Positions 3,784 through 57,316 of a stretch of 64,000 nt of DNA are shown here, one piece after another. The stretch comes from Scytolyngbya sp. HA4215-MV1 (lineage in GTDB: Bacteria; Cyanobacteriota; Cyanobacteriia; Leptolyngbyales; Leptolyngbyaceae): positions 1 to 64,000 of the forward strand of contig JAHHIA010000009.1 of the NCBI GenBank assembly GCA_019359045.1, given 5' to 3'. The notes beneath the pieces are model-generated. The model saw only the letters and a list, made by a program, of their open reading frames with translations. It had not been told where the DNA came from and did not search any database. How positions within the stretch are numbered: position 1 is the stretch's first letter; the number at the start of each line of letters is the position of its first letter. The translations under genes were made by a program, and so were the position numbers.

Positions 3784-3831
3784 CTGCAATATCCCTCTCG
3801 CTCAGAGTCACATCGGGTAGTGCTTCAAAGG

Positions 3832-3888
3832 TGTTGTTGGTATTTTTGAAAGCTTTGCTCAGCAAAGCTTTCAAAAATACCAACAACA
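3832..3888. repeat. 57-bp perfect palindrome with GCTCAGC apex
   Basis: Two 28-base arms are exact reverse complements around a single C at 3860. The inner part reads GAAAGCTTTGCT-C-AGCAAAGCTTTC. It sits in the 300-bp gap between the divergent Uma2 and acs genes. Related palindromes with the same apex occur at 21093-21133 and 41364-41406. There is no T-run outside the arms, so an ordinary terminator is not obvious. A mobile hairpin repeat or a cruciform-forming site fits better. Confidence 0.85.
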
Positions 3889-4087
3889 TGTCTAAAACAT
3901 AACCGTCACATCGCTGCGTTTAGAAAGGGCTTTTCTCATCCATTGACGAGCGATGCCCTATTCTAGCGCGGGTGTATCTCGCGATTGAGCATCGTCAGGG
4001 GATGGCGTATAACAAAATTATTCGATCGCACCCATCCGGCAAAAGAAAGCAGTATCTTGGCTAGAGAGTTGATTAGAACCCGCCACC

Positions 4088-13722: not shown

Positions 13723-13829
13723 ATCCCTGAAATGCTATTGTCCCAAGCGCAGTTGGTTAGGTGGTAGATATTTATTGATATTTTTGAATATCACCAGCAC
13801 AGTTTTGGGGTTGCGCTCGACGATCACAA

Positions 13830-21015: not shown

Positions 21016-21092
21016 GAGAAAACTGACGAAGCAGGCAGCCACCGAAACGATGAGCCTGTTACTGGATTCTGTTCTAGATACATTTTTGCAAA

Positions 21093-21133
21093 ATATTTTT
21101 GAAAGCATTGCTCAGCAATACTTTCAAAAATAT
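21093..21133. repeat. 41-bp palindrome with GCTCAGC apex (family member)
   Basis: Two 20-base arms with a single mismatch surround the C at 21113. The inner sequence GAAAGCATTGCT-C-AGCAATACTTTC closely matches the palindrome at 3832-3888, including ATTTTTGAAAGC. It lies just upstream of the mltG start. Confidence 0.8.
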
Positions 21134-21261
21134 CAACCGCACTTTTGAAACACAATTCTTCACTGAAATCCTGAAAAAACGAGGGATCTGCCCCAATGGT
21201 TTCTGACTTGTTCTCCCTGAAGAACGAAAAGCGATGCACTGAATGAATTACAGCAAAAAGA

Positions 21262-29432: not shown

Positions 29433-29589
29433 AACCGTGGGTTAGGTTCCAGACAGGTTGTTGATATTTTTGAAACCCTATCGCACCGTGAACTGAATCA
29501 TCGTCACCCTGAAAACTCAACCCGTCCGACTGAACACTTCGGCCCTTTTTATTTTTTGCATCACCTCAATTCTTTCACGCGACTGCCTT

Positions 29590-40860: not shown

Positions 40861-41440
40861 TGCTACCGCCTTTAGGACTGATTTCAATCCGCTCTTTTTG
40901 AAGTGGACGAGATCGAACCATCATCATCTCAGTTGCCTCTCCTCACATAAGCACCCCGCTTAGAGTAAATCTGCAATTGCTTCGTGCATTGCTGATATTC
41001 ACTCATCATTATTCTGCTCCATAATACACGCTCAGGAAAGGAGTTGTTCAAGTATTTAGCAACTAAACTGATAATTTTTTTAATCTTTTAGAAAAACTGG
41101 GGTAAGAGATCGCCCCCATAGATTTTAATCGTCATTATTTTGAGTCAACTTTTAGCAGATTTTAGTGATTTCATATTTTTTTTGAAGATTCTATCCTGCT
41201 GTGAGTGGCGAGTTTTAGCGGCTTTTCTGTGAGCGGGAAAAAATGACGCGATCGCTGAATTGGGCTATCTAATCAAGCAGTTTCAAACAATAGAACACTT
41301 AGAATTCCTTCAAATGATTGATTGAGATTTGACCCATTGAGGGGGCTGACCCCTCACGATGGGGAGATTTTTATTGAAGATGCTCAGCATCTTCAATAAA
41401 AATCTCTTTCTTGCAATTTAGTAACAACCATGAAGCGCGT
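40861..41440. other. AT-rich intergenic region
   Basis: About 580 bp between the start of the coiled-coil gene and the end of egtB. It is AT-rich, with T- and A-runs near 41060-41190, and its right end carries the palindrome at 41364-41406. I see no gene. Confidence 0.55.
41364..41406. repeat. 43-bp perfect palindrome with GCTCAGC apex (family member)
   Basis: Two 21-base arms are exact complements around the C at 41385. The inner part is TTGAAGATGCT-C-AGCATCTTCAA. The apex and the AT-rich outer arms match the palindromes at 3832 and 21093, although the middle sequence differs. It starts 34 bases downstream of the egtB stop and could stop transcription. Confidence 0.8.
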
Positions 41441-54364: not shown

Positions 54365-54390
54365 TCTAAGTAGCATTGTCATCGAGTAAG

Positions 54391-54434
54391 AGTTTTGAGT
54401 GATGAGTTTTACCTAAGGCTTCTCACTCAAAACT
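54391..54434. repeat. 12-bp inverted repeat (AGTTTTGAGTGA)
   Basis: AGTTTTGAGTGA (54391-54402) pairs exactly with TCACTCAAAACT (54423-54434) around a 20-base loop. Further 'ACTCAAAACTC' copies follow up to 54453. These 'GAGTTTTGAGT' repeats are often found between cyanobacterial genes. It lies between the TagO-type gene and cinA. Confidence 0.75.
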
Positions 54435-54467
54435 CCATTACTCAAAACTCAAAACCTTCATTTTTCC

Positions 54468-55736
54468 ATGTCTGCCGAAATTATTTGCGTTGGAACAGAA
54501 TTACTGCTGGGCGATATTTTAAATAGTAATGCCCAGTTTTTAGCGCAACAATTGGCGCAGTTGGGTATCCCTCACTACTATCAGAGTGTGGTCGGAGACA
54601 ATCCAGCGAGAATTCAGCAGACCGTGGCGATCGCGAGTGAGCGTTCCCAAATTCTAATCTTTACTGGCGGTCTGGGTCCCACCCCTGACGACCTCACCAT
54701 TGCCACGCTGGCGGATTTTTTTGGTGTCCCCCTAGCGGAACGTCCCGAAATTATCGAAGACATTACTCGTAAATATGCCCAGCGGGGCAGAGAGATGACG
54801 GCAAACAACCGCAAGCAGGCGCTCTTACCCGTCGGAGCCGAAATTCTCACCAATTCAGTGGGCAGTGCCCCCGGCATTATTTGGCAACCCCGCCCCAACC
54901 TGACGATTCTGACTTTTCCTGGCGTTCCCACAGAGATGAAGCAGATGTGGCAAGAAGTTGCCGTTCCCTACCTAAAAAGTCAAGGTTGGGGACAGCAACT
55001 GATCCATAGCCGAACCTTGCGATTTTGGGGCATTACCGAATCTGCTCTGGCAGAAAAAGTCGCCCCTTTTCTGGATCGACAAAATCCAACGGTTGCTCCC
55101 TATGCCAATAACGGGGAGGTCAAGCTGAGAGTGTCTGCTCGAGCTGCATCGGAGGCAGAAGCCACCGCACTGATTGCCCCAGTGGAACATCAACTCAAAC
55201 AAATTGCTGGCGCAGACTGCTATGGCGCGGATGAGGATACGCTCGCGTCGGTGGTGGGTCGAGCTTTGCTGGCATCAAAAGCAACGCTTGCCGTAGCCGA
55301 GTCCTGTACGGGAGGGGGCTTAGGGCAAATGCTCACTGTGACGCCAGGTAGCTCAGTCTATTTTTGGGGTGGGGTCATTTCTTATGACAACTCGGTCAAA
55401 GTGGAATTGCTGAATGTCCATCCGGACGATTTGGCACAACAAGGAGCCGTCAGTGCGATCGTCGCTGAGCAGATGGCGGCAGGAGTCCGCGATCGTTTGG
55501 GAACCACTTGGGGGCTGAGTATTACGGGTATCGCGGGACCCGATGGTGGCAGCGACAGCAAACCCGTGGGACTGGTCTATATTGGATTAGCCCATACGAA
55601 TGGGTATGTCACTAGCTACGAGCATCGCTTTGGTGAATTACGCAGCCGCAACTGGATTCGCCATCTCAGCGCTTGCACGGCACTGGATCACCTACGACGC
55701 CAATTAATTCTGTCAACGTCCCGAGCAACCGGTTAA
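54468..55736 (+). CDS. cinA: CinA family protein (nicotinamide-nucleotide amidase)
   Basis: A 422-residue, full-length CinA. The N-terminal MoCF-like domain (about 1-170) begins SAEIICVGTELLLGDILNSN and has FTGGLGPTPDDLT and TFPGVPTEMKQMW. A linker follows, then the C-terminal CinA domain (about 260-415): 'AVAESCTGGGLGQMLTVTPGSSVYFWGGVISYDN' and GITGIAGPDGGS. The C-terminal part deamidates NMN in pyridine-nucleotide recycling. The N-terminal domain is a pyrophosphatase-like unit. The glyA-TagO-cinA order on one strand is common in cyanobacteria. Confidence 0.96.
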   Translation: MSAEIICVGTELLLGDILNSNAQFLAQQLAQLGIPHYYQSVVGDNPARIQQTVAIASERSQILIFTGGLGPTPDDLTIATLADFFGVPLAERPEIIEDITRKYAQRGREMTANNRKQALLPVGAEILTNSVGSAPGIIWQPRPNLTILTFPGVPTEMKQMWQEVAVPYLKSQGWGQQLIHSRTLRFWGITESALAEKVAPFLDRQNPTVAPYANNGEVKLRVSARAASEAEATALIAPVEHQLKQIAGADCYGADEDTLASVVGRALLASKATLAVAESCTGGGLGQMLTVTPGSSVYFWGGVISYDNSVKVELLNVHPDDLAQQGAVSAIVAEQMAAGVRDRLGTTWGLSITGIAGPDGGSDSKPVGLVYIGLAHTNGYVTSYEHRFGELRSRNWIRHLSACTALDHLRRQLILSTSRATG

Positions 55737-56749: not shown

Positions 56750-57316
56750 GGCTTTGGCATTTAGATTTTGCCAGTAAAGATCCCTTGCCATTCCATTTTT
56801 CTGATCTACGCTATCCATGACAGCGATCGTGGTCTGAAAGGCAAAGCAGCAAATTTATTCGCCCCTGGAATACCTGAATTCCAGGGGCTTTTGATTGATG
56901 ACTCAGCTAAACAATGACTCCGCCCTCTGTCTGGGTTGAAGCTCGTGAGCGCGCGCTTAGACTATAAATTTGTCAGCAGACTTTTACCAGTTCAATATTC
57001 CAGATTCAGACATTCCAGATTGAGCTGTTTGGTCATTTACCCAAACTCCAAATTTCAAATTCCAAAATTATGCTCAAGCGGTCAATGGGTGGGTATTTCT
57101 GATACAGCAATTCCAGCGTAATCAGGGAAAATAGACCCTGTTTAAGTAGATTAGCCCCATTCTCAAATGGGTAGGTTTCGCTAGCGGTCAATGGTAGGCT
57201 AATGCAGGGTTTTTATAAAATGCTTACGCTCCTTTTGCCGAATTGGCAAAAAGGGGCAGGGCTGGCTATGCCCTTTGAAACCCTACCCAAACAGGCAGCC
57301 GACAAAAAGAGGTGAT
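56750..57316. other. Intergenic region after aroQ
   Basis: About 570 bp. A clear terminator hairpin lies at 56861-56892. A smaller stem, CCTTTTGCC/GGCAAAAAGG (about 57231-57254), lies near the right end. Otherwise no gene, tRNA or repeat was recognised. Confidence 0.55.
56861..56892 (+). terminator. Rho-independent terminator
   Basis: GCCCCTGGAAT (56861-56871) pairs with ATTCCAGGGGC (56878-56888) around ACCTGA, followed by TTTT. It lies 112 bases downstream of aroQ and probably ends that transcript. Confidence 0.85.

Follow-up and report, generated by a model that had tools for sequence, protein, structure and literature searches.

Insertion sequences of the IS1 family generate target duplications of 8-9 bp and have ends that begin GGTNNTG. 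REP/RAYT-type hairpins, by comparison, are single-stranded palindromes moved by tyrosine (Y1/HUH) transposases that recognize the fold, and to our knowledge tyrosine transposases leave no target duplication. REPs of the GTAG type have been reported in cyanobacteria, and ERIC, NEMIS and Nezha represent further sequences that are short, non-coding, mostly intergenic, foldable and present in multiple copies, as set out in PMC3733652. A different process can alter palindromes in place. In yeast, template switching homogenizes the arms of inverted repeats and inverts the spacer between them (PMC8604942). Such switching has also been proposed for RNA hairpins by authors who regard the evidence that it maintains short stems as circumstantial (PMC8794818).

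The window considered here, which is the whole 64,000-nucleotide stretch of DNA that was analyzed, contains three palindromes that a first-pass annotation had taken for one mobile family with a common GCTCAGC apex. All three were confirmed in the sequence at the positions given there (Table 1), with arms of 28 bases at 3832, one mismatch in 20 pairs at 21093 and perfect arms of 21 bases at 41364, each pair of arms surrounding a single base. The proposed kinship holds for the first two, which appear to be the cores of a multi-copy, non-coding miniature element (MITE). It fails for the third, and one family of three is rejected because the palindrome at 41364 is single-copy and unrelated. Matches to TTTTTGAAAGCNNNGCTCAGC with up to three mismatches number 125, counted by strand, in the 6.6-Mb, 33-contig genome, as compared with 6 for the reversed pattern. 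The apex is a poor hallmark: GCTCAGC occurs 19 times in the window, where the shuffle mean is 10 and one of 100 shuffles reached 19, so that taken alone it is weak evidence. It is rejected as the common feature, as loops differ in other genera and the shared part is a box in the arms.

The explanation that we consider probable overall is that of a MITE moved by an IS1-type transposase, with a hairpin remodeled by template switching and a box shared between element types, the palindrome at 41364 being separate. Two points weigh on this confidence: the IS1 remnant whose ends fit best (L037) lies below the PF03400 cut-off, and the loop is unevenly flipped in copies with perfect duplications. The MITE is a new IS1-type family, a known kind of element, in one cyanobacterium; less ordinary are arms and loops of the kind that template switching would produce and a hairpin box common to MITE types and genera.

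Table 1. Features of the palindromes and of the elements that enclose them in the 64,000-nucleotide window
Position	Strand	Feature	Basis
3807..3815		9-bp target-site duplication GTCACATCG, first copy	sequence, duplication statistics
3816..3904	-	full-length 89-bp IS1-type MITE, copy 1; left end 3904, right end 3816; neighbors Uma2-type gene / acetyl-CoA synthetase gene	blastn, ends
3832..3888		perfect palindrome of 57 bp that makes up the hairpin core of copy 1	palindrome scan, folding
3843..3877		35-bp core TTTTTGAAAGC-N13-GCTTTCAAAAA, box also in MITEs of other cyanobacterial genera	pattern searches
3905..3913		9-bp target-site duplication GTCACATCG, second copy	sequence, duplication statistics
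13755..13795	+	weak candidate for a decayed short form, perhaps a chance match	end matching
21065..21158	+	decayed copy 2, between YceG (mltG-type) gene and DUF3727 gene	alignment of copies
21093..21133		core palindrome of copy 2 with a single mispair	sequence, palindrome scan
29440..29482	+	43-bp hairpin-less form; relic noted earlier at 29462 is its right half	ends, sequence
41364..41406		lone hairpin, single copy, outside the MITE family	pattern search, palindrome scan

Alignment of the copies places the ends of the element outside the palindrome, which is therefore only its middle: GGTTATGTTCTAGACA, the 57-bp palindrome and CCTTTGAARCACTACC together make up a non-coding unit of about 89 bp. 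Mobility, as claimed in the first-pass annotation, is upheld for two of the three palindromes, the moving unit being the larger element that encloses the hairpin. A blastn search with a 91-base consensus found at least 40 places covering 74-91 bases (40 of 95 candidates scored). Collection by ends gave 57 copies, of which 35 are 89 bp long, eight are 43 bp, five are 88 bp and nine have other lengths. This set leaves out copies with more than nine end mismatches in total, nested sub-hits and the spurious pairs L072 and L063, and other copies with worn ends, such as copy 2 of the window, lie outside it. In 29 of the 57 copies, the flanks form a target duplication of 8 or 9 bp that is perfect or has one mismatch, as compared with 0.06 expected from shuffled pairings (10 perfect 8-bp and 7 perfect 9-bp duplications, and 5 and 7 with one mismatch); a recognizable duplication is missing in 28. 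A simple heuristic that counts ORFs from 100 aa upward classes 56 of the 57 as intergenic, and the genes neighboring these copies are in tandem (34), convergent (14) or divergent (8) orientation. Compared as terminal inverted repeats, GGTTATGTTCTAGACA and GGTAGTGCTTCAAAGG agree at roughly half of their positions. The element is thus short, non-coding, dispersed, present in many copies and associated with target-site duplications, as MITEs are.

Within the window, the copies differ in their state of preservation. Copy 1 has a perfect 9-bp duplication, GTCACATCG, on both sides, and its predicted fold as single-stranded DNA has an energy of -30.5 kcal/mol (z -9.3). Copy 2 has no clear target duplication and is too diverged to be counted among the 57. 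Of two shorter relics proposed earlier, the one at 29462 survives as part of a 43-bp hairpin-less copy, whose flanks AAACCGTG and GCACCGTG match at 6 of 8 positions. The other, at 13777, is doubtful and was rejected as a secure relic, having four mismatches in its left end and no good right end. At 57273-57287, CTTTGAAACCCTACC is one mismatch from the right end of the MITE, with no left end reported nearby, and is perhaps a solo end or a chance match.

Among 39 genomes, the element was found only in its own, none of the 38 relatives carrying it. In this comparison, the empty sites that the first-pass annotation had asked for did not come to light, which counts against the preferred explanation. 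Searches of plasmids with the element and of viral contigs with the 35-bp core likewise gave no match. Elsewhere in its own genome, two loci (L089, L090) combine family ends with different hairpins, possibly through replacement of the whole hairpin; at L089 the arms are largely re-matched and the duplication is a perfect one of 8 bp. At a third locus (L095), MITE-like ends enclose an unrelated interior in an element of 75 bp.

The duplications of 8-9 bp and the GGTNNTG ends of the MITE are those of the IS1 family, from which we infer that an IS1-type DDE transposase acting in trans mobilizes it. Five matches to PF03400 (IS1) occur in the genome, four of them over the cut-off. At least one GGTAGTG end was found at four of the five places and both ends at two of them (L034 and L037). 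The right ends of the MITE and L037 agree at 13 of 16 positions; L037 is the one match below the family cut-off (22.5 vs 24.1 bits), and an evident target duplication is found neither there nor at L034. The MITE differs from the IS1 family and its known MITEs in that no parent insertion sequence with its own ends was found among the five PF03400 places, and in being mostly hairpin, for which the ends of the PF03400 remnants offer no visible counterpart. Opposite MITE ends 400-1600 bp apart, in 120 stretches of the genome, were found only with an end carrying four mismatches, and none of these pairs was credible. As no IS1 transposase gene was found between ends of the MITE, the element is termed "IS1-type" and is not a proven member of IS1.

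The first-pass annotation had instead pointed to REP-type mobility, in which a tyrosine transposase would recognize the folded single strand. Dozens of short intergenic palindromes with variable but compensated stems are common to the MITE and to REP/REPIN sequences, and the report of GTAG-type REPs in cyanobacteria also speaks for such a mechanism. It is nevertheless extremely improbable here, being largely refuted by the target duplications of 8-9 bp at 29 of 57 copies. Those duplications, together with IS1-like termini external to the hairpin, favor a DDE-type transposase. Moreover, the foot of the hairpin (TGTTG.../...CAACA) has neither a GTAG nor a CGTC tag; the GTAG of the right end of the MITE belongs to the outermost bases and is separate from the foot. 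ERIC, NEMIS and Nezha can be likened to the MITE by description only, and they differ from it in that here a box is common to element types with different ends and the loop flips.

How the arms of the hairpin remain complementary while their sequence changes is a separate question from how the element moves. In the 35 copies of exactly 89 bp, there are 26 pair changes affecting both sides, of which 23 are complementary as compared with 0.7 expected by independence, and 38 changes affecting one side. A second analysis, of 44 long copies, found both sides changed at 20 of the 28 pairs (3.3 in shuffles) and pairing in 96% of cells, as compared with 41-52% when the partner was slid. The earlier observation that arms stay complementary despite sequence change is thus strongly supported within the MITE family; the palindrome at 41364 provides no evidence for it. 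The loop also varies: relative to the ends of the element, 17 of the 35 copies have C as the central base, 16 have G, and T and A occur once each, independently of a polymorphism of the right end (Fisher p = 0.72). Arms that change together and a spacer that inverts are the pattern by which template switching is recognized, and matched arms and inverted loops are likewise found in quasipalindrome template-switch mutation as described in PMC8604942 and PMC8794818. The systems treated there are yeast genes and RNA genes, whereas here the process would operate on families of mobile hairpins.

The first-pass annotation had allowed either selection on the fold or a copying mechanism. Under selection on a transcribed RNA or a DNA cruciform, serving as a processing site or a protein target, compensatory changes would arise one by one. 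Strong covariation would be expected, and a somewhat slower evolution of the box relative to the outer arms (pair-by-pair data from the 44 long copies), spacing that is nearly constant at 13 bases (66 of 70 sites in other genomes) and an identical box in several genera all agree with such selection. We regard it as unlikely. One-sided transitions number 30, of which 14 create G-U on the strand read and the other 16 do not; no wobble bias is apparent. With flipping loops and no preference for G-U among one-sided changes, template switching inside the hairpin fits the arms and loop better than does selection on RNA, and copying is the better supported of the two readings, although not proven. 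Also at odds with a selected RNA, the Rfam search of the 64-kb window gave no match at gathering scores, and hairpin-less forms of 43-46 bp exist in two element types. Further, the palindromes of copies 1 and 2 have no T tract of the kind that marks an intrinsic terminator, in line with the view in the first-pass annotation that the palindromes are not ordinary terminators. Selection for cruciform formation, on the other hand, would keep the arms matched likewise, which counts against template switching.

Comparison of copies with and without perfect duplications qualifies this picture. The 13 copies with perfect duplications have 8 doubles and 15 other departures and the remaining 22 have 15 and 26, so that the share of doubles is no higher in the former (8/23 departures vs 15/41). 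Where the duplication is perfect, the center is C in 9 copies, G in 3 and A in 1, from which flipping appears to be incomplete in these copies; in the others they are 8 C, 13 G and 1 T (p = 0.07 for C/G). Under the preferred explanation of template switching, a polymerase would switch templates inside the 28-pair hairpin or cruciform, copying a mutation in one arm into the other and flipping the loop, and the fold would not be kept mainly by selection on RNA. If so, compensatory change in mobile hairpins can stem from an error of copying and not from selection on the fold, and searches that use covariation to detect functional RNAs would have to treat repeats with caution. Loop orientation would then also constitute a natural record of template-switch events, for which the ends and duplications of each copy supply internal controls.

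Loss of the hairpin provides another type of variation. Compared with the 89-bp element, the 43-bp copies lack the stretch that two TTTGAAA direct repeats enclose. As perfect duplications are absent from all eight 43-bp copies and present in 17 of 44 long ones, the sequences suggest that the hairpin may sometimes be lost, with age, by deletion between these repeats. A parallel pair of forms, of 131 bp and 45-46 bp, occurs in P3, a MITE of another genus. One 45-bp short form of P3 (L204, genome G167) has flanks, CAAGAGCCTGAG and CTCAGGCTCTTG, that are inverted repeats of each other, as if it had inserted into the loop of another hairpin.

The same signatures in arms and loops recur in two MITE types of another genus. 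P1 (TACAGCAATTATCGATC...GCGCTGTA, genome G161) was sampled as 26 copies by ends, which come from 30 loci in a single genome where the end has 198 strand matches; all 22 of its doubles are complementary (1.2 expected), single changes number 10, and its loops are TTC (8), GAA (7), AAA (6) and TTT (5). P3 (CAGCAATTCTCATTAT..., genome G167) has two hairpins, compared in 12 copies of exactly 131 bp. As a loose match to the T-rich box served to orient these copies, their box content is not free of bias. In the first hairpin, 15 of 15 doubles are complementary (1.4 expected), with 9 single changes and loops of GAA (5), TTC (4) and three others; in the second, 8 of 10 are complementary (0.7 expected), with 6 single changes and loops of AAC (6), GTT (5) and one other. 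Duplications of 9 bp that match at 8 or more positions flank 15 of 30 P3 copies of any length in genomes G167 and G300, where 0.03 would be expected. P1 and a further type, P2, both begin and end with TA, which suggests that TA may be their target. A P2 consensus from copies in genus g41 matched five plasmid records; because all of these are from Pseudanabaena, g41 is taken to be that genus. P3 gave no match in plasmids. One locus considered as an autonomous element between P3-type ends (L221) was rejected, as it holds a FolD-like gene, according to its ORF, and no transposase. The literature search found no paper that treats MITEs together with cyanobacteria and Pseudanabaena.

What these element types have in common with the MITE of the window is the 11-bp arm box TTTTTGAAAGC and its partner. 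Of the 388 genomes of the class that were searched, 33, from 7 of 160 genera, contain the pattern TTTTTGAAAGCN{3,25}GCTTTCAAAAA, which is by construction present in all matches, and none contains the reversed palindrome. These genomes comprise 25 of the 26 of genus g41, the MITE's own genome and seven more. A scan of named genomes with a narrower pattern, from which own or near records were possibly left out, found only the filamentous cyanobacterium LEGE 07170. At 70 distinct sites read in other genomes, the spacer has 13 bases in 66, and inner pairs are complementary in 289 of 330 cases, representing 32 different stems; the surroundings of the box are MITE-like and differ. Among the 26 P1 copies gathered by ends, 15 have the exact box in each arm, 7 a box that is changed but matched, and 4 neither; the corresponding counts for the 35 copies of 89 bp in the MITE's own genome are 27, 2 and 6.

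In 15 flank comparisons, with shuffle counts uncorrected for that number, the flanks of the MITE showed no likeness to those of P1, P2, P3 or the g66 type (as high a score was reached by 135-200 of 200 shuffles) and only marginal likeness to those of the LEGE type (24/200). P1, P2 and the g66 type are related to one another by their flanks (0-1 of 200), P1 and P3 have a short common stretch (2/200), and likeness to the LEGE type is weak for both P1 (10/200) and the g66 type (15/200). As far as these sequences go, the hairpin box is common to element types with different ends, a statement for which the one control is thin: a box of equal length from the other hairpin of P3, the only control box, was found in 9 of the 388 genomes, all of genus g41.

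Convergence or chance among AT-rich palindromes could also produce a shared box, and the box is AT-rich, the matches in 388 genomes hold it by construction and a single control was used. That explanation seems quite improbable to us given 22 fixed bases in 33 of 388 genomes with none for a reversed palindrome of the same composition, the exact or changed but matched boxes in P1 copies gathered by their ends (15 and 7 of 26) and the confinement of the control box to one genus.

MITEs of other cyanobacterial genera, whose ends differ, also carry TTTTTGAAAGC, which would therefore represent a module common to several element types, either recognized by a common factor or passed on by template switching from hairpin to hairpin. 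A more specific version, offered tentatively and with rather less than even confidence, is that TTTTTGAAAGC-N13-GCTTTCAAAAA is a transferable hairpin cassette, in which the box and its near-constant spacing are kept while the sequence outside and inside varies and is re-matched. The box would then be read by a common host or element factor, or hairpins would overwrite one another; such template switching between elements would make the hairpin a parasite of MITEs. Its carriers would include the IS1-type element (8-9-bp duplications), P3 (9 bp) and P1 and P2 (apparently TA), presumably moved by different transposases. If the sharing of a box between different ends is real, MITEs would swap internal parts, or an unknown factor would read the box in several genera. 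No description of the box was found among the papers listed in the literature searched, which lay mostly outside subscription journals, and none of those listed for the box sequence itself deals with repeats of cyanobacteria. Within the 85 bases before the core at one locus of genome G300 (L179), a variant hairpin, GAATTTTTGAAAGGCTGG...CCAGCCTTTCAAAAATTC, with a changed box lies near a normal copy.

The palindrome at 41364 appears to be a separate, single-copy hairpin and represents a quite different case. Besides matching itself on both strands, its sequence, GATTTTTATTGAAGATGCTCAGC, has one further match, at a non-palindromic place on another contig. It lies 34 nt downstream of the stop codon of an FGE-sulfatase/DinB_2 gene on the minus strand, and this position, together with a terminator-like score and a tail (TTTCTTG) on the plus strand, would suit an ordinary terminator or 3'-end hairpin. 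It is here that the first-pass rejection of terminators may not hold. Against a terminator, the gene that ends there is on the minus strand, where the T tract is absent, and a similar hairpin was found downstream of homologues at none of 19 other loci from relatives. The gene at these loci was taken as the longest ORF, with a length that fits the frame of the match in 17 of 19 (not L277 and L278), and the loci are homologues for which orthology is not implied. Four of them (L267, L268, L273 and L278) have different hairpins downstream. Weighing these points, we place the terminator or 3'-end reading a little short of an even chance, and regard the palindrome as a lone hairpin that may be a terminator. 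A repeat of a different type lies farther along the window at 54390-54455, upstream of an ORF at 54468, where inverted and direct repeats (GAGTTTTGAGT/ACTCAAAACTC) overlap.
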